Below are positions 7,666-26,585 of a stretch of DNA of 26,864 nucleotides, in pieces. The notes beneath the pieces are model-generated. The model searched no databases and was not told the origin of the DNA. It saw nothing but the letters and a program-made list of their open reading frames with translations. Source of the stretch: a virus. A program made the position numbers and the translations under genes. Positions within the stretch are counted from its first letter, which is position 1; every line of letters starts with the position of its first letter. The stretch spans positions 1-26,864 of the IMG/VR virus record IMGVR_UViG_3300031851_000146. One strand, 5' to 3'.

Positions 7666-8377
7666 CTATTATTTTATGGTTTGCGAAGCTCTTCATGAGA
7701 AGAGAACTAAACCATTGTATAATACTGTCATTAAAAGAATCAAAGATTGTGAAGATAATTTTTATCTTTTGGGAGGAGTTGAAGCAATTGATGAAATTCC
7801 AGTAATAAAGGTTTGCGATCTTGATGACTACCATTCTTGTGTTGAAAAAATAGAATCAGTATTTAAGAAAGATTGGTGTGATGCTGATTGGCACATAATT
7901 TGTGACGATGATACTTTCATCCACACTGAGAATTTAAATTTATTTATAAGTAAATTGCCCGAAGATAATTTGAGAATATATTGCTCCCAGCTTTACGAAG
8001 ATAGCGTTGGTATATTCGGAGGGGCTGGCATTTTAATGAATGATAAAACTTTTAAATTGATCAAGAAATTTGTAAAAGAAAATGGATGGAAAGAAAATAG
8101 ACATTTTCAAAGTCATTCTGACATAGCATTGTCGCAAATGTGTTATCGTTTAAATAGGAAGCTAAAAGCTGCGAATAAAAAAAATGATAAAATATATGTT
8201 GTTAACCCCAAGCCAATGTATTCTTTTAATAATGATACAATGAAAAAAAGTCAAAAGTTAATCAATATAAAGAAAGATCTTATCACCGCACACATTAAAG
8301 ATATGCAATATATCTGGACTGACTTTAATGAACAAGAATGCCCTTACCAATCGTTAGAAAATGCCTTTTGTAGATAG
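7640..8377 (+). CDS. Fringe-like (GT31-type) glycosyltransferase
   Basis: A 245-aa protein with the landmarks of Fringe/beta-1,3-galactosyltransferase folds: a DDD metal-binding motif at residues 89-91 in WHIICDDDTFIHTENL, and GGAGILMN at residues 127-134, which matches the GGAG(I/Y) segment of C1GalT/Fringe enzymes. A downstream SHSDIALSQMC resembles their catalytic acidic loop. It should transfer a sugar from a UDP-sugar to a glycan acceptor; donor and acceptor cannot be read from sequence. The chosen start overlaps the previous gene by 26 nt. An internal ATG at 7676 would remove the first beta strand (KVINYYFMV), so the longer form is preferred. It opens a tightly coupled series with the sulfotransferase, GT2 and UDP-galactopyranose mutase genes. 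A phage-borne GT31-like enzyme is unusual. Confidence 0.75.
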   Translation: MPKKSKVINYYFMVCEALHEKRTKPLYNTVIKRIKDCEDNFYLLGGVEAIDEIPVIKVCDLDDYHSCVEKIESVFKKDWCDADWHIICDDDTFIHTENLNLFISKLPEDNLRIYCSQLYEDSVGIFGGAGILMNDKTFKLIKKFVKENGWKENRHFQSHSDIALSQMCYRLNRKLKAANKKNDKIYVVNPKPMYSFNNDTMKKSQKLINIKKDLITAHIKDMQYIWTDFNEQECPYQSLENAFCR

Positions 8378-8954
8378 TGATAAAACATTTGCCTTTGTGC
8401 ATATTCCAAAATGTGGAGGTAGATCTATTAAAAAAGTTTTTAATATTACAAAGCATAACCACTATGGGATATCTGAACTGGGGTTCAATCCTACTGATTA
8501 CTGCCCTAACTTATCTGTAGATGATTTGTTTAAATTTGCGTTTGTCCGTAACCCTTGGGATAAATTTGTCAGTGCATATGAATACCTCAAAAGAGGGGGA
8601 ATACCTCGTTATGACAGACCTAAAACACTAGCGATTAAACAAGAATATCCAAAGTTCAAGGATTTTATACTTGCGAAACATGTTTGGGAACAATGGATTT
8701 TTTTCAAACCACAATTAGATTTCATTACTGTAGACGGATCAATTAAAACAGATTTTGTGGGTAGGTTTGAAAATTTTCAAAATGATTTTGATTTTGTTTG
8801 TGATCAAGTCGATACTCCTAGAGTAAAACTTCCTCATGTAAACGCAACAAAACACGCTCATTATACTGAATATTATGATGATCAATTGATAAAGGTTATT
8901 GAGAGAACTTTTTCAGAGGATATAGAAACGTTTAAATACAGATTTGGCGATTAA
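8361..8954 (+). CDS. Sulfotransferase, Sulfotransfer_2-like family
   Basis: This 197-aa protein carries both PAPS-binding elements of carbohydrate sulfotransferases: the 5'-phosphosulfate loop HIPKCGGRS at residues 14-22 and the 3'-phosphate loop FVRNPWDKFVSAY starting at residue 61. The family transfers sulfate from PAPS to hydroxyl or amino groups of sugars. The C-terminal part (GRFENFQNDFDFVC, LPHVNATKH, HYTEYYDD, FSEDIETF) is shared with a second paralogue at 26001-26585. It overlaps the GT31-like gene by 17 nt and shares one base (TAATG) with the GT2-like gene, so the three are translationally coupled. The likely substrate is a glycan built by its neighbours. PAPS would have to come from the host, as no PAPS synthesis gene is visible here. 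Confidence 0.85.
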   Translation: MPFVDSDKTFAFVHIPKCGGRSIKKVFNITKHNHYGISELGFNPTDYCPNLSVDDLFKFAFVRNPWDKFVSAYEYLKRGGIPRYDRPKTLAIKQEYPKFKDFILAKHVWEQWIFFKPQLDFITVDGSIKTDFVGRFENFQNDFDFVCDQVDTPRVKLPHVNATKHAHYTEYYDDQLIKVIERTFSEDIETFKYRFGD

Positions 8955-9739
8955 TGGTTACTTTTATTATATGTGTTAAACATTACGAAAACTGTCATTC
9001 ATACAATGATACTTGGGATTTATTAGAAAATACTTTAGTTTCTGTTTTCGGTCAGCTAGATAAAAGATTTGAGGTTATAGTGGTTTCGAATAAGACATTA
9101 AATGAATTCCCAGATAATCCCAAAATTAAAGACATAAAGTTTGTAGAAGTTGATTGGCTCCCTCCATCATTATCCAATGCTTGGCAAATAGGTACTCAAG
9201 TAAGTGTCGATGATGGGATGCGCCAAATTAGATTAGATAGAGGTACTAAATATATTTTGGCTTTAAATGAAGTTGATGATGATAATTACGTTATGTTTGT
9301 TGATGCGGACGACTTCATACATAGAGATTTAGTTAGAACTATTCATAATTCAAACAAAGATTTTTTAAGAATAAATAAAGGTTTTAAAATGGGTATAGAC
9401 GATACGTTTAAACGTGTTGGTGATTTTAATAAAAGATGTGGCACTTGTAATATAACTAAAGCAAGCATACTTAAAAAACAAATTGATTTTAAAAATGTCA
9501 ATCTAAGTTCATGCCAGAATACTATAATCAAATCTACACAAAATTATTATTTGATAAAAGTTATCGGATCTCATGCATTGTCATGGGACTATTTTAACCA
9601 TAAAGGTTATGAAGGTGGGGATATTGAGTTTAGAGCAGCGATATACAACTGCTCTCATAATGAGCAACACTCAGGTAAAGCTAATTTAAAGTACTCTCAG
9701 GAAATTAGTAAGAGTATGAGATTGCATTTTAACATATGA
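8954..9739 (+). CDS. GT2-type (GT-A fold) glycosyltransferase
   Basis: The 261-aa protein begins with the strand-helix of a GT-A nucleotide-sugar fold (VTFIICVKHYENC), has a mid-domain beta strand RFEVIVVSN at residues 38-46, and the DxD motif as VMFVDADDF at residues 113-121. This order is typical of family 2 glycosyltransferases, which attach a sugar from an NDP-sugar. A histidine-rich tail (SWDYFNHKGYEGGD and beyond) may serve acceptor binding. It is AT-rich: one spot-counted 60-nt line (9361-9420) has 27% GC. It sits between the sulfotransferase and UDP-galactopyranose mutase; a galactofuranosyl donor is therefore possible but not shown. Confidence 0.75.
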   Translation: MVTFIICVKHYENCHSYNDTWDLLENTLVSVFGQLDKRFEVIVVSNKTLNEFPDNPKIKDIKFVEVDWLPPSLSNAWQIGTQVSVDDGMRQIRLDRGTKYILALNEVDDDNYVMFVDADDFIHRDLVRTIHNSNKDFLRINKGFKMGIDDTFKRVGDFNKRCGTCNITKASILKKQIDFKNVNLSSCQNTIIKSTQNYYLIKVIGSHALSWDYFNHKGYEGGDIEFRAAIYNCSHNEQHSGKANLKYSQEISKSMRLHFNI

Positions 9740-10728
9740 AGTTTGCTATTGTTGGTTGCGGTTTAAGTGGGATAACAAGTGCGCGATTGCTAAAAGATCA
9801 AGGGCATGAAGTCCAGATTTTTGAATCTCGCAATCATATTGGAGGCAACTGCTATGACAGTAATGTGTGTGGAACTATCATGCATAACTATGGTCCTCAT
9901 ATTTTCCATACTGATGATGAAGAGGTTTTTAAATTTTTGTCTAAATATACAGAATGGACCCCGTTACATTACAGACCAATAGGTCGTACAATAATTGGAG
10001 ATATACCTCTTCCTTATAGCGATAAAGGTTGTGAGGAGGCTATTGGATTTAAACTTACAGAACAAGAAGTTGTTGATCTTGTCTTTTGTGATTATAGCGA
10101 GAAGCAGTGGGGAGTTCCATTTAATGAGATCCCATCAAGCATAACGAATAGAATCCCCAAGACGAAGGGTTATGAAAGCCCAACTTGGTTTGAAGGACAA
10201 AAATATCAATGCGTACCGAAAGAAGGATACACAAAGATGTTTGAAAAAATGCTTGATGGAATTGAGATCTTCTTAGGTTGCTCTAAAAACGATTGGAAAA
10301 ATTCATCTTATGACAGGTTGATTTATACAGGCAAGATAGACGAATATTTTGATAATTGTTACGGGAGTCTACCATATAGAACCCTTGATTTCGAACACAA
10401 GGTAACCTCTAAAAAACAAAATACCTTGGTTTTCAATGAGTGTAATTATAGCAATCCTTGGACTCGCCAATATGATCATTCGTATTTTACAACTGACCAT
10501 AGTGGTTTGACAGTCATAACGAGAGAGTATTCAAGAGATGCTAAAGAGAACGATATTCCTTTTTATCCTATCCCTTGGGGCGACCCACACAAAAAATATA
10601 AGAACTATAAAGCACTAGCAGACAAGGAAAAAAATACAATTTTTTTAGGCAGATTAGCTCAATATAAGTATTTAGATATGTGGATGGCCATAAAACACGC
10701 ATTTCTGAAAATAAAAAAAATAAATTAA
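9736..10728 (+). CDS. glf: UDP-galactopyranose mutase
   Basis: This flavoenzyme interconverts UDP-galactopyranose and UDP-galactofuranose, supplying Galf for cell-surface glycans. Diagnostic features are the N-terminal FAD-binding GCGLSG (residues 7-12), the acidic end of the second strand in IFESRNHIGGNCYD (28-41), the UGM-specific NYGPHIFHT (51-59), and YQCVPKEGYTKMFEKML in the second half. At 330 aa it is shorter than the usual 360-390 aa of bacterial Glf, mostly through a compact mid-section. It overlaps the GT2-like gene by 4 nt (ATGA), so substrate supply and sugar transfer are probably co-expressed. Galf is absent from many bacteria, so the phage may introduce this sugar to its host or virion. 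Confidence 0.93.
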   Translation: MKFAIVGCGLSGITSARLLKDQGHEVQIFESRNHIGGNCYDSNVCGTIMHNYGPHIFHTDDEEVFKFLSKYTEWTPLHYRPIGRTIIGDIPLPYSDKGCEEAIGFKLTEQEVVDLVFCDYSEKQWGVPFNEIPSSITNRIPKTKGYESPTWFEGQKYQCVPKEGYTKMFEKMLDGIEIFLGCSKNDWKNSSYDRLIYTGKIDEYFDNCYGSLPYRTLDFEHKVTSKKQNTLVFNECNYSNPWTRQYDHSYFTTDHSGLTVITREYSRDAKENDIPFYPIPWGDPHKKYKNYKALADKEKNTIFLGRLAQYKYLDMWMAIKHAFLKIKKIN

Positions 10729-13113: not shown

Positions 13114-13135
13114 ACTCAATTTAAATTATTTAAAA

Positions 13136-13160
13136 GCCGTCCTTCGGGACGGTTTTTTTT
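13136..13160 (+). terminator. Rho-independent terminator of the lysis region
   Basis: ccgtcc (13137-13142) and ggacgg (13147-13152) form a perfect 6-bp stem with the stable TTCG tetraloop, followed by eight Ts (13153-13160). This is the clearest intrinsic terminator in the window and separates the lysis region from the sugar-nucleotide operon. Confidence 0.93.
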
Positions 13161-13171
13161 ATTATTAGCTA

Positions 13172-13199
13172 TTGAATTTTTATACGTTTTGGCTAAAAT
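13172..13199 (+). promoter_or_regulatory. Sigma70-like promoter for the sugar-nucleotide operon
   Basis: TTGAAT (13172-13177), a 16-nt spacer and TAAAAT (13194-13199) lie just after the terminator and 6 nt before ATG 13206. No Shine-Dalgarno sequence separates promoter and start codon. Confidence 0.65.
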
Positions 13200-13205
13200 T
13201 AGTCA

Positions 13206-13580
13206 ATGAAGTTAGAACCTGTATTTTCAAAAGTACAAAAACACGCTAAGGGATGGGGGGAAGAAATTTGGATCACTAATAATGATTTGTATTGTGGTAA
13301 GATTTTGAAGTTCAATGAGGGTGCGGAGTTTTCTATGCATTACCATGTCAAGAAAGAGGAGACTTGGGCTGTTATGCAAGGGAAATTGATTTTAAAGTAT
13401 TATGATTTGGGTAATGCGGAAGAAAAACAGGTTGAGTTGAACGAAGGAGACACTGTTCATTTGCGACCATGTATTCCTCACAAGCTTATAGCTCTCAAGG
13501 ATTCTAAAGTTTTTGAAGTTAGCACTCAACATTTTGAGTATGATTCTTATAGAATCCAAAAAGGAGACTCACAAAAATGA
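13206..13580 (+). CDS. Cupin protein, mannose-6-phosphate isomerase type II-like
   Basis: A 124-aa single-cupin protein. It has the metal-site pattern HYHVKKEE (His45, His47, Glu51 or Glu52) and a second motif HLRPCIPHKL with His92. The opening KGWGEEIWITNNDLYCGK is like that of sugar-phosphate isomerase or epimerase cupins found in surface-glycan loci. It heads the four-gene operon and overlaps the kinase by 4 nt (ATGA), so a role in making or isomerising the sugar phosphate is likely. Its substrate cannot be assigned. AAGGAG at 13561-13566 near its end is the ribosome binding site of the next gene. Confidence 0.8.
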   Translation: MKLEPVFSKVQKHAKGWGEEIWITNNDLYCGKILKFNEGAEFSMHYHVKKEETWAVMQGKLILKYYDLGNAEEKQVELNEGDTVHLRPCIPHKLIALKDSKVFEVSTQHFEYDSYRIQKGDSQK

Positions 13581-14323
13581 AAATATTAATTATCGGAGAA
13601 TCTTGTTTAGATATTTTTATTTATGGTTCTGCTGACCGATTATGCCCAGAAGCTCCAGTCCCTGTTTTTAAACAAGAGGATGCAGTTACTTTTATGGGTA
13701 TGGCCTCAAACGTCCATAGAAATGTCATTGCTTGCCTTAATGATTTAGGTAAAGAAGCAGAAGTAGATATTAAAAGCAATAAAAGCACTGGAGCAAAGGC
13801 TAGATATATTGACTCTAGCTCCAATCAAATGTTTTTGCGGGTTGATTCAGACGATTACAAAGAGATTAATAAAATAAAATTAAAAGAAGCAAATGTGTGG
13901 TCTTATGACGCTGTAATCGTTTCTGATTACAACAAGGGATACCTTACAGATAGAGATTTGAAATATATTGCAGATAATTCTCAAATGTCTTTCTTAGACA
14001 CTAAGAAAAAATATAATTCCGATTGGGCTAATTCATTTGACCTAATCAAAATCAACAGAAAGGAATACAAAGAGAATGGATTTAAAGGGATGGGTATGGA
14101 TAACCTTATTGTTACTTTGGGGGGTGAGGGATGTAGGTTCAGAGGAAAGAAACACCCTTTGAAATCTGTGTCTCAAGTAAGAGATGTGAGTGGTGCTGGA
14201 GACACTTTCCTTGCTGCTTTCGCGACTAATTATTTATTTAATCAAGATATAGATTTAGCTATTGATTATGCTCAGATTTGCTGTAGCATCGTCGTCAGTA
14301 AAGCTGGAACAGCAACGATATGA
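13577..14323 (+). CDS. PfkB-family sugar kinase, HldE/RfaE N-domain-like
   Basis: The 248-aa protein has GESCLDIFIYG at the N-terminus, RLCPEAPVPVF (residues 21-31, compare RLSPEAPVPV in HldE), SDYNKG (116-121), the NRKEY segment (160-164), the nucleotide-site strand IVTLGGEGC (178-186), and the PfkB signature DVSGAGDTF (203-211) with catalytic Asp209. HldE's first domain phosphorylates D-glycero-D-manno-heptose 7-phosphate at C1. This copy is shorter than the ~315-330 aa domain, mainly in the lid region, so substrate may differ. It lies directly before a stand-alone version of HldE's second domain, so the bacterial fusion is split here. Confidence 0.8.
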   Translation: MKILIIGESCLDIFIYGSADRLCPEAPVPVFKQEDAVTFMGMASNVHRNVIACLNDLGKEAEVDIKSNKSTGAKARYIDSSSNQMFLRVDSDDYKEINKIKLKEANVWSYDAVIVSDYNKGYLTDRDLKYIADNSQMSFLDTKKKYNSDWANSFDLIKINRKEYKENGFKGMGMDNLIVTLGGEGCRFRGKKHPLKSVSQVRDVSGAGDTFLAAFATNYLFNQDIDLAIDYAQICCSIVVSKAGTATI

Positions 14324-14796
14324 ATCACCCTAAAATAGTTGATACATCTACGATCATGCACCGTTTTTCAATGGGAACGGAAAAGATGGCTTTTACGAAC
14401 GGTTGCTTCGACTTATTTCATGCAGGTCACGCGCACCTTCTCCAATCAATAAAAGAAGATTTACCTGACGATTACAAACTAGTTGTTGGTGTGAATGGAG
14501 ATGAAAGTGTTAAGAAAAATAAGGGTTCAGAAAGGCCCATTATTAGCCAAGAGCAGAGAGCTTTCCTTGTGGCTTGCAATGAGTGTGTTGACTACGTTTT
14601 CGTATTTAATGAAGCAACAGTCTCTGGTTACCTGAGACACTTAAAGCCTTCTCGTTGGTATAAAGGGGGAGATTATAGTATCACTACATTACACCCCGCT
14701 GAGAGAGCAGAGTGTGGGCAAACAGAGGTATATTTCATTCCATTCTCTGAAAATATAAGTGCTACCCAGATTATAACAAAAATTAAAAAATTATGA
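14320..14796 (+). CDS. Sugar-phosphate adenylyltransferase, HldE/RfaE C-domain-like
   Basis: This 158-aa nucleotidyltransferase has TNGCFDLFHAGH (residues 26-37, the HxGH active site), VGVNGDESV (56-64), the ERPI segment (71-74), KGGDYS (115-120) and a C-terminal SATQII (147-152). The last two correspond to KGGDY and STTxII of HldE, which sets it apart from glycerol-3-phosphate or choline-phosphate cytidylyltransferases. In HldE this domain joins AMP to heptose 1-phosphate to give ADP-heptose. A ~25-residue N-terminal extension is present. It overlaps both neighbours by 4 nt, so kinase, transferase and phosphatase are translationally coupled. Confidence 0.82.
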   Translation: MNHPKIVDTSTIMHRFSMGTEKMAFTNGCFDLFHAGHAHLLQSIKEDLPDDYKLVVGVNGDESVKKNKGSERPIISQEQRAFLVACNECVDYVFVFNEATVSGYLRHLKPSRWYKGGDYSITTLHPAERAECGQTEVYFIPFSENISATQIITKIKKL

Positions 14797-15101
14797 AAAC
14801 TTTTATCGTAGATATTGATGGGACTATTTGTACCGACAGTCGGGGTAGCTATGAGTTAGCTCGTCCTATGAAAGCTCGTATTGAGTATTTTAATGGATTA
14901 TTTAATAGCGGGAATAAAATAATCTACTGGACAGCTAGAGGGGCTAACTCAGGTAAAGATTGGTCAGAGTTTACAAAGAAGCAACTTGAAGAGTGGGGAG
15001 TCAAATATACTGAGTTAAGAACAGATAAACCAGCATATGACTTTTGGATTGATGACAAGGCTTACAATGGGAATAGGTTCTTTGATGAACTTTATCTTTA
15101 A
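14793..15101 (+). CDS. Small HAD-family phosphatase
   Basis: A 102-aa HAD protein with the DxDGT nucleophile motif (VDIDGTIC, Asp7 and Asp9), motif II in IIYWTARG, and motif III acidic residues in FWIDDKAYN. It lacks a cap domain, as in compact phosphatases of capsule and LPS loci. In the ADP-heptose route a HAD enzyme (GmhB) removes the C7 phosphate between the kinase and the adenylyltransferase steps, and this gene could fill that role, although it resembles generic capsule-locus HAD proteins more than GmhB itself. It overlaps the adenylyltransferase by 4 nt and ends convergently against a minus-strand gene (4-nt overlap). Confidence 0.78.
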   Translation: MKTFIVDIDGTICTDSRGSYELARPMKARIEYFNGLFNSGNKIIYWTARGANSGKDWSEFTKKQLEEWGVKYTELRTDKPAYDFWIDDKAYNGNRFFDELYL

Positions 15102-16524: not shown

Positions 16525-17295
16525 ATGGAAAAAGTAGCTTTCTTAAATTTGACCATAAATTCTTTCACCCAAAACAATGTTTGGAAAAAATTTATCGACG
16601 GTGGTAGTAATGATATATATAATTTATATTTGCACTCCAAGTTTAAAGCTCCAAGCTTGTTTTCTGATTATCAGATAGAAAATATTGTGCCAACAGCTTG
16701 GGGTCATTTCTCATTAGTTGAAGCTACTATAGAATTAATGAAAGCAGCTTTGGAAGATGAGGGGAACGAGTACTTTGCCTTAATTAGTGATTCTCATTTC
16801 CCCTTGTATGATTTGGATTCTACAGTAAATTTAATAAAAGAAAGGTATAAAAAAATGACCTTCACAAAACATTTCAGCTTTCATACGAAAGTTAAAAGTC
16901 AAAAAATATTCAGAGAAGGAGTTAGGGGTTATAATTTTGGAGAATATAATGCAGTTTGTCAGTTTTTCGTTTGTCGCAGAAAAGATGCGATTAGGTTTGT
17001 TGAGACTTTTGATGATTGGGCTAAGTATTTCGTAAAGAATAAGGTTATTTTTGCCGATGAATTTTATTTTTGGGGAATTGCAAAACAGTTGGGTATGGAT
17101 TTTGAGATGGGACAAGCTACAACCTATTCTGATTGGAGTATAAGGAAAGATTCGAAGGGTAATGTTGGCAGGAATCCAAGGGCTTTTAGTAAAATTAGCA
17201 AAGGTATGGTTGACACTTATCGTAAAGATGGGTATCTCTTTGTCAGGAAGATCGTGCCTTCCACTTTTGTGATGGTAGATCCTTTAAATTATTAA
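16525..17295 (+). CDS. Core-2/I-branching-like (GT14-type) glycosyltransferase
   Basis: A 256-aa protein whose central block reads VPTAWGHFSLVEATIELMKA (residues ~57-76), then YFALISDSHFPLYD, CQFFVCRRKDAIRF and ADEFYFWGIAKQLG. This order (WG-x-SLV, Y-x-LISDS-x-PL, QF-x-V-x-R-x-A, DE-x-YF) matches the Branch family of beta-1,6-GlcNAc and xylosyl transferases and their bacterial relatives. It would add a branch sugar to a glycan acceptor. It is the third glycosyltransferase fold in the window. Upstream is a 47-nt divergent region containing TATAAT (16499-16504) without a clear -35. It is immediately followed by thyX, with which it is probably co-transcribed despite the unrelated function. Confidence 0.75.
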   Translation: MEKVAFLNLTINSFTQNNVWKKFIDGGSNDIYNLYLHSKFKAPSLFSDYQIENIVPTAWGHFSLVEATIELMKAALEDEGNEYFALISDSHFPLYDLDSTVNLIKERYKKMTFTKHFSFHTKVKSQKIFREGVRGYNFGEYNAVCQFFVCRRKDAIRFVETFDDWAKYFVKNKVIFADEFYFWGIAKQLGMDFEMGQATTYSDWSIRKDSKGNVGRNPRAFSKISKGMVDTYRKDGYLFVRKIVPSTFVMVDPLNY

Positions 17296-21597: not shown

Positions 21598-21719
21598 AAA
21601 TTAAAGTATTCTTTTATTAAAATTAGTAGTATAGAAACCCAAAGTCCAATAGCATATCCAGTAGATAAAGCGAAAATTGTGTTTCCGAATATTATTTTTT
21701 TTATTTTACGGTATACCAC
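21594..21719 (-). CDS. Membrane microprotein, 41 aa, GTG start
   Basis: In the gap between the genes at 21701 and 21597 the minus strand holds an ORF VVYRKIKKIIFGN, then TIFALSTGYAIGLW and VSILLILIKEYFNL. It has a basic N-terminus and one transmembrane segment. The only start in frame is a GTG at 21719, overlapping the end of the upstream gene by 19 nt, and its TGA overlaps the next ATG by 4 nt. The coupling at both ends suggests a real gene, but with no ATG and no homologue recalled it remains tentative. Confidence 0.45.
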   Translation of the reverse strand: MVYRKIKKIIFGNTIFALSTGYAIGLWVSILLILIKEYFNL

Positions 21720-22198
21720 TTTGGCTTTTCGCTGTATTTCCATTTTGCCATATAGGATTTATCGTGATTGTAATACTCACGATACTTTTCGACAACAGAA
21801 AGAGTTTCGAAGTTTGGTAGTTGTCTGCATCTCTGGTCTTGAGCAATCGCTACAGCAAATTCTGTTTGCTCTTGTTTATCGAAGTTCAAGTGATGTTTGT
21901 TCTCCAGAATCCAAATAAAAGTATCTGTGCTTTTGTGACGCTTGCCGTATCTTCTAGTATATTCGTTAAGTAAAGCTGCTGTATGCTGAACAAGCCACTC
22001 AAAGTTACCACGAGACTCTCTGGCCCAGATTGCAGAGGGGTGATTGTAATGAGTCTTTTTGTATGGGGCTTCAAGATCCTGCATCCAGAATGTAGTGCAG
22101 AGAAGCTGATTGCATTCAAGAATCATCTTGACACAATGTTTGTCGCAATGCTGGCGAGCAGCAATTTCGGGATCTTTATCTAAACAGAATATATTCAT
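21701..22198 (-). CDS. Conserved phage protein of unknown function, 165 aa
   Basis: The sequence begins MNIFCLDKDPEIAARQHCDK and continues HCVKMILECNQLLCTTFW, then THYNHPSAIWARESRGNFEW. I recall relatives with the pattern LDxDPxxAAxxxCDxHVxKMxxExxQxL in many phages, annotated only as hypothetical. Conserved Cys/His/Asp near the start and the HPSAIWAR segment suggest an enzyme or nucleic-acid-binding fold. It starts 9 nt after a promoter -10 box and heads an operon running to the terminator at 20456. Confidence 0.7.
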   Translation of the reverse strand: MNIFCLDKDPEIAARQHCDKHCVKMILECNQLLCTTFWMQDLEAPYKKTHYNHPSAIWARESRGNFEWLVQHTAALLNEYTRRYGKRHKSTDTFIWILENKHHLNFDKQEQTEFAVAIAQDQRCRQLPNFETLSVVEKYREYYNHDKSYMAKWKYSEKPKWYTVK

Positions 22199-26000: not shown

Positions 26001-26585
26001 ATGATTAGTCATAAAGATAAATTTATATTTATACATATACCTAAGTGTGGTGGTACTTCGATAGAGAGGTTTTTTTTATCCCAATATGGTATAAGTAATG
26101 ATTGGACAAGGGAATACCCTTTGGAAGCATTGCCAATGAAGGTGAGAGCTGAATTCAACATTGGGTTTAAGCAGTCGCAACACATGTCTTTAAGGAATTT
26201 TACATTAGAAAAGCAGGAAGAATATTTTTCTTTTACTTTCGTCAGGAATCCTTGGGACAGGATAATGTCTTCTTACTTATATTCCAAGAGGCTTGGTTAT
26301 GAGTTTACTTTTAAATCTTTTTTTAATTCTCCTGTATTTGAGAGTCACTGCAAACCGCAATCTTATTTTATCAATAAAAATATAGATTTTATAGGTAAGT
26401 TTGAGGATCTACAAGGAGACTTCGATTTAGTTTGCGAAAATTTGGGGATTGAATCCAAACAATTACCGCATGAAAACAAAACGGTTCATAAGCATTATAC
26501 TGAATGGTATACTGATGAAAATAAAAAGCTGGTTCAAGATAAGTATTCTGAAGATATAGAAGCTTTTAATTACAAATTTGGATAA
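26001..26585 (+). CDS. Second sulfotransferase, Sulfotransfer_2-like family
   Basis: The 194-aa protein carries the PAPS 5'-phosphosulfate loop HIPKCGGTS (residues ~12-20) and the 3'-phosphate loop FTFVRNPWDRIMSSYLYSK. The C-terminal half (GKFEDLQGDFDLVCENL, LPHENKTVHKHYTEWY, YSEDIEAFNYKFG) lines up with the paralogue at 8361-8954, with conserved GxFExxQxDFDxVC, LPHxNxTxH and SEDIExFxYxFG. A different N-terminal middle section suggests another acceptor. It sits 6 nt after one tRNA and 7 nt before the next, so it is probably processed from the same transcript. Its ATG has no Shine-Dalgarno sequence. Confidence 0.85.
   Translation: MISHKDKFIFIHIPKCGGTSIERFFLSQYGISNDWTREYPLEALPMKVRAEFNIGFKQSQHMSLRNFTLEKQEEYFSFTFVRNPWDRIMSSYLYSKRLGYEFTFKSFFNSPVFESHCKPQSYFINKNIDFIGKFEDLQGDFDLVCENLGIESKQLPHENKTVHKHYTEWYTDENKKLVQDKYSEDIEAFNYKFG

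Follow-up and report, generated by a model that had tools for sequence, protein, structure and literature searches.

A four-gene phage operon that may encode a variant ADP-heptose pathway with a cupin in place of GmhA

Described sugar clusters and the bacterial heptose pathway

Sets of sugar genes have been described in cyanophages. The clusters T4-GC 304, 305, 307 and 308 were reported to co-occur and to be perhaps functionally linked (Sullivan et al. 2010, PMC3037559). The cyanophage 'LPS' set formed by T4-GC 304, 305, 306, 307 and 308, present in P-SSM2 and S-SSM7 and in a similar form in S-CAM1, contains the same four families as the operon analyzed here plus an epimerase, and lies beside tail-fibre and sugar genes. 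The proteins of the window (the whole DNA stretch analyzed, 26,864 bases) are ~25–48% identical to those of this set, the gene order is different, and no pathway was given in the earlier work. In jumbo cyanophages, Iyer et al. 2021 (PMC7824862) described sugar clusters of the same enzyme types, with cupin-fold isomerases, PfkB kinases, HIGH nucleotidyltransferases (NTs) and HAD phosphatases leading to NDP-sugars. Heptose, HldE and the use of a cupin for GmhA are not named there, and the word heptose is absent from the texts of both papers.

The bacterial GmhA-HldE-GmhB-HldD pathway is the other system for comparison. In cells, the isomerization of sedoheptulose 7-phosphate is usually performed by GmhA, which is not related to cupins. 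Like this pathway, the operon has an HldE-type kinase and NT and a HAD phosphatase, an HldD-like protein is found in relatives, and the proposed chemistry has the same order. In contrast, HldE is split in two, the kinase is short (~248 aa), a cupin stands for GmhA and an EcbF/PNKP-like HAD for GmhB, and HldD lies outside the fragment.

According to our preferred reading, to which we give a probability of about 0.72, the operon encodes four consecutive enzymes leading from sedoheptulose 7-phosphate to ADP-heptose, with the cupin in the role of GmhA and the small HAD in that of GmhB, and the product probably enters a glycan of the virion or of the infected cell. Gene content, conserved active sites, the interchange of GmhA and cupin in cellular genomes and the co-occurrence of the genes were observed directly, whereas each of the reactions, the nucleotide of the product (ADP) and its fate are inferred. 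Using a metal site like that of D-lyxose isomerase, the cupin would convert the ketose into the aldose, i.e., sedoheptulose 7-phosphate into heptose 7-phosphate. The kinase would then phosphorylate C1 of heptose 7-phosphate, the small HAD would remove the 7-phosphate and the NT would transfer AMP to give ADP-heptose. In relatives, the HldD-like epimerase would complete the pathway, which is best read as a complete variant of the ADP-heptose route in which non-homologous proteins replace GmhA and GmhB.

Operon layout and the enzymes after the proposed isomerase step

The earlier note on this DNA described a four-gene operon with 4-nt overlaps, resembling ADP-heptose synthesis with a split HldE. 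Four plus-strand ORFs of the expected families are indeed present at 13206–15101, and a 4-nt overlap is found at each junction of cupin, kinase, NT and HAD (Table 1). The catalytic motifs of all four proteins are intact and are kept across the viral homologues. The transcription signals require a correction. A single promoter and a terminator had been assigned to the operon. The promoter-like site is at chance level by scan (nine found versus 8.1 expected), though its hexamers are invariant, with a variable spacer, in the 11 aligned relatives. The terminator is located upstream and closes the previous unit; no plus-strand terminator was found between the operon end and 15400, and an opposite-strand gene converges there. 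In the region 13172–13206, the end of the conserved -10 box and the cupin ATG are only 6 nt apart (6–7 nt in relatives of the window clade), which suggests that the operon transcript is leaderless.

Table 1. Features of the operon and of the window, and archaeal loci with fused genes.
Feature	Position or locus	Strand	Remarks
Intrinsic terminator	13132–13157	+	5' of operon; ends preceding unit; kept in 8/11 relatives
Probable promoter TTGAAT-16-TAAAAT	13172–13199	+	after terminator; hexamers kept in 11/11 aligned relatives
Cupin ORF	13206–13580	+	124 aa; Cupin_2
PfkB kinase ORF	13577–14323	+	248 aa; PfkB/rfaE domain I; short HldE N-domain-like
Nucleotidyltransferase ORF	14320–14796	+	158 aa; cytidylyltransferase-like/rfaE domain II
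Small HAD phosphatase ORF	14793–15101	+	102 aa; EcbF/BcbF/PNKP-like
Sulfotransferases, paralogous	8361–8954 and 26001–26585		galactose-3-O-sulfotransferase-like; PHROG 3347
UDP-galactopyranose mutase	9736–10728
Core-2/I-branching glycosyltransferase	16525–17295
Pyrimidine dimer DNA glycosylase, denV-like	21701–22198	-	PF03013
Archaeal fusion loci	L308, L311, L327; L284, L286, L288, L293, L301, L302, L294		types: HldE-type kinase-GmhA, HldE-type kinase-cupin, GmhB-cupin-NT

The kinase resembles the N-terminal domain of HldE, as the note had stated. The best NCBIfam model is rfaE_dom_I (TIGR02198; 122.5 bits, E 1.9e-35), at a score below the curated cut-off of 345. Its AlphaFold2 model (pLDDT 90) is closest, among solved structures, to Burkholderia HldA (4e84), with a Z score of 23.9, 2.4 Å over 235 residues and 31% identity. 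Ribokinases score Z 22–23 at 16–18% identity, the E. coli enzyme (16%) being within 1 Z unit. A PEAPVPV motif near the N-terminus is shared with HldA in the alignment with 4e84, and the catalytic GAGD (D209), R21 and the P24–P29 region are kept in 148 homologues. The protein is shorter than HldE domain I by ~65 residues, mostly after the GMASN segment. It is proposed to be a heptose 7-phosphate kinase.

In the kinase tree, the kinases of phages and Patescibacteria form one clade, separate from the long HldE kinases. Six Patescibacteria-type genomes have GmhA, and in these no protein other than the short kinase clearly matches rfaE_dom_I; its gene lies 1.4–9.4 kb from gmhA. Four of these six loci additionally contain GmhB, an NT and an HldD-like epimerase. 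The short kinase is thus linked to the heptose pathway by evidence that does not depend on phages. In four other short-kinase genomes, the cupin is present without GmhA. The Patescibacteria short kinases of L105, L111, L118, L124 and L126 are nested among those of phages (100* for the group), which suggests a transfer of the gene from phages to Patescibacteria or the reverse.

The NT was likewise recognized as similar to the C-terminal domain of HldE. Its best NCBIfam model by far is rfaE_dom_II (TIGR02199; 133.6 bits, E 4.4e-39, below the curated cut-off of 181.5), and the HxGH motif (H34–H37) is well conserved, with H34/H37 in 97–99% of 111 homologues. It is proposed to be a heptose 1-phosphate adenylyltransferase. 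The placement of kinase and NT in unrelated families, which the note had envisaged as a refutation, did not occur in the profile searches.

The phosphatase is not GmhB-like. No similarity to GmhB models or sequences was found; the matches are confined to EcbF-BcbF, BT0820 and PNKP-like models, and the nearest PDB chain (9iqw) is a capsule biosynthesis protein. The HAD residues D7, D9, T47, K79 and D88 are present, in the motifs DxDGT, T, K and DD, and the protein is proposed to be a heptose 1,7-bisphosphate 7-phosphatase equivalent to GmhB. The label "phosphoheptose isomerase" of PHROG 1238 is a misnomer for this protein, which has HAD motifs and no SIS domain. This label and that of PHROG 7851 (the cupin) are widespread in phage annotations, among them the P-SSM2, S-CAM1, P-TIM68 and Bellamy records. 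Some reported phage gmhA genes may thus be this HAD.

HldD had not been seen in the fragment, and it is indeed absent from the 26,864 bases. Nevertheless, three relatives of the window clade (L025, L031 and L033) carry an HldD-like epimerase about 5–6 kb upstream of the cassette (about 5.8 kb in close relatives). Cyanophages also encode an epimerase of this kind. For eight cassette-associated epimerases, TIGR02197 (HldD) is the best model (1e-54 to 1e-70; 185–237 bits, below the cut-off of 274.6), while GalE scores are ≤98 bits.

The scores of the kinase, the NT and the HldD-like proteins, none of which reaches its NCBIfam curated cut-off, speak against a heptose pathway, as does the shortening of the kinase. 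An unlikely alternative is that the enzyme logic is the same but the phage enzymes have shifted to another sugar, such as a hexose or octose phosphate, so that a different NDP-sugar is made. The loss of part of the HldE domain from the kinase would agree with this, as would the transketolase, class II aldolase or further epimerases added in several phage clusters and the cyanobacterial hosts lacking LPS heptose (PMC4515613). However, the eight accompanying epimerases tested were all HldD-like, the same short kinase is the partner of GmhA, GmhB and HldD-like proteins in Patescibacteria, and the archaeal cupins that occupy the GmhA slot are nearly identical to the phage cupins in their active-site residues.

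The cupin and the GmhA slot

The cupin has a complete metal site, formed by H45, H47, E52 and H92. In an alignment of 32 diverse sequences, eight residues are invariant (K32, H45, H47, K50, E52, H92, E104 and D113). They match, in the same order, the metal and sugar contacts of the Thermofilum D-lyxose isomerase TsLI (K62, H75, H77, K86, E88, H143, E156 and D163; PMC8378251), with K32, K50, E104 and D113 corresponding to sugar contacts. The D-lyxose isomerases 2y0o, 7nzo and 3kmh have the cupin fold and the eight contact residues in common with the window protein, which is shorter, ~22% identical, and has a 7-carbon sugar phosphate as its proposed substrate.

Two points speak against the assignment: the substrates of D-lyxose isomerases are unphosphorylated sugars, and the cupin fold is functionally promiscuous. 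A profile search against the PDB detected D-lyxose isomerases, with an alignment to 2y0o, and L-ribose isomerases; quercetinases scored better over shorter stretches. The predicted model (pLDDT 95) superposes on D-lyxose isomerase with Z 14.9 and 2.4 Å over 110 residues. Its best structural matches include CapF, oxalate decarboxylase, quercetinase and an archaeal phosphomannose isomerase, and since CapF and phosphomannose isomerase score at least as high as D-lyxose isomerase, the fold alone cannot settle the role. At the family level, the score is 23.7 against PF07385 (cut-off 20.8), over 46 positions only, and 15.5 against NF051472 (D-lyxose isomerase), whose curated cut-off is 350; WbuC-like and CapF-like cupins score similarly. 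An RmlC-type epimerase was also considered and is less likely, given the complete metal site and the isomerase-type lysines.

The archaeal operon context is more telling than the fold for a role equivalent to GmhA. Some archaeal MAGs encode an HldE-type kinase-cupin fusion beside a true GmhB and an NT, with no GmhA, and 279 genomes of that phylum (DPANN-type) were therefore profiled. The kinase was present in 67 of them: the cupin without gmhA in 19, gmhA without the cupin in 33, both genes in one and neither in 14. This near mutual exclusion has a Fisher p of 5e-7, with GmhA and cupin thresholds set after inspection of the lists and with genomes that are incomplete, mutually related MAGs. Within 4 kb of the archaeal kinase, 16 cupins and 32 gmhA were counted, and never both. 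Two loci match slot for slot: the order in L285 is cupin, HldD-like, kinase and GmhB-NT, and in L315 it is GmhA, HldD-like, kinase and GmhB-NT. Kinase-cupin fusions occur in seven archaeal loci and parallel kinase-GmhA fusions in three, and in L294, GmhB, cupin and NT are fused in one protein. On the kinase tree, which is a quick tree, the state of this slot changed between cupin and GmhA at least 11 times, and sister pairs differ in it. In these cellular, non-phage genomes, the GmhA slot of HldE/GmhB/HldD operons is filled by cupins of the same subfamily, with nearly identical active-site residues, and not by the phage gene itself.

The same pattern was found when 67 de-duplicated NT-bearing loci were compared. 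Cupin and gmhA occur together in two, with 43 loci having only the cupin, 10 only gmhA and 12 neither (p 1e-4, negative association). Small HAD and gmhB are never found together (40 HAD only, nine gmhB only and 18 neither; p 1e-4, negative), and cupin and small HAD go together, with an odds ratio of 60 over all 107 loci. An independent cupin scan located a kinase at ≤5 kb in 18 of 30 clusters. Ten records, with a cupin lacking a nearby kinase and their close kin, were inspected further; in six of them a kinase is encoded at another site, and these six include every one of the five records of ≥50 kb. Kinase-less viral cupins were therefore discarded as evidence against a role in the pathway, as long records have the kinase elsewhere.

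The absence of a SIS-fold GmhA from the operon, seen in the earlier note, stands, as the cupin fold has no SIS-fold homology to GmhA; the missing step itself is most likely covered by the cupin, to which that note gave no role, in view of the slot exchange in archaea. It is improbable that the cupin is an accessory protein (a sugar epimerase, a dioxygenase or a binding protein) and that the host supplies heptose 7-phosphate to three phage enzymes. The PHROGs name, cysteine dioxygenase, and the similar scores of WbuC-like and CapF-like cupins speak for such a role. Against it stand the archaeal data, in which cupin and GmhA swap slots, exclude each other and form parallel fusions, and the invariance of K32, K50, E104 and D113, which are not metal ligands. 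Moreover, hosts such as marine Synechococcus, with an LPS without heptose (PMC4515613), may not supply heptose 7-phosphate. We consider "cysteine dioxygenase" (PHROG 7851) a misnomer for what appears to be an isomerase-like cupin.

With slightly less assurance than for the operon as a whole, we regard the cupin as the probable representative of a second class of sedoheptulose-7-phosphate isomerases, not homologous to GmhA but repeatedly exchanged with it and common to phages, Patescibacteria and DPANN-type archaea, by which phages would make their own ADP-heptose, sometimes in hosts without LPS heptose. No earlier assignment linking this cupin to GmhA or phosphoheptose isomerase was found in the open-access literature, subscription papers being outside the scope. 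The assignment would give a testable enzyme role to a family labelled cysteine dioxygenase in databases and would fill a missing step in the heptose pathways of archaea and phages. If true, pathway searches that use GmhA as a marker miss many heptose producers.

Spread among viruses and possible use of the product

Marine phages commonly carry this gene set, and the operon is not peculiar to the window virus. In scans of viral contigs with at least 600 matches each for kinase and cupin, and after removal of identical kinases, all four genes were found together at a minimum of 57 different loci in viruses. Ten gene orders occur among the matches listed, and the four genes are contiguous in at least 36 loci. 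Such a recurrence is not due to chance. The same families are clustered in P-SSM2, S-CAM1, S-SSM7, S-T4 and P-TIM68. That the sugar genes are non-selected filler, the "stuffer DNA" raised for the LPS genes of large cyanophages by Sullivan et al. 2010 (PMC3037559), is very improbable given catalytic residues kept in 73–148 homologues, this tight co-occurrence with repeatedly reshuffled order and the conserved promoter hexamers.

ADP-heptose is a sugar donor and also a ligand of animal innate immunity. Besides the operon, the window encodes a tail fibre, a GT2, two sulfotransferases, a mutase and a Core-2-type glycosyltransferase, which together suggest glycan building; the operon product is therefore probably used for a glycan of the phage particle or of the cell that it infects. 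The LPS of marine Synechococcus contains neither heptose nor KDO (PMC4515613). Cyanophage hosts thus offer no obvious heptose sink, and in cyanophages incorporation of the sugar into an ordinary LPS core is unlikely. The product may instead become part of a glycan of the virion or serve a change of the cell surface imposed by the phage, or the sugar specificity may have drifted. The proposed reading turns a vague marine-phage "LPS gene" cassette into a defined pathway, and raises the question of the purpose of phage ADP-heptose where the host LPS has no heptose.

The window virus itself is probably not a Kyanovirus, as no known phage has a terminase more than 28% identical to that of the virus's closest large relative. 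A megablast of the window against known phages gave no match. The endolysin resembles those of alphaproteobacterial phages (38%), and the matches of the clamp-loader-like protein, endolysin and terminase are distant and point to different hosts.

Further sugar genes accompany the cassette. In the viral clusters L044, L046, L057, L066 and L073, a second, longer sugar cupin (~220 aa) is coupled to a second small HAD (~128 aa), at about 0.8–3.2 kb. At L101:5884-7133 and L136:10192-11438, a SIS-domain protein is followed by a HAD-NT fusion and an epimerase, beside the kinase-NT-cupin set; these three genes are possibly a second NDP-sugar module.
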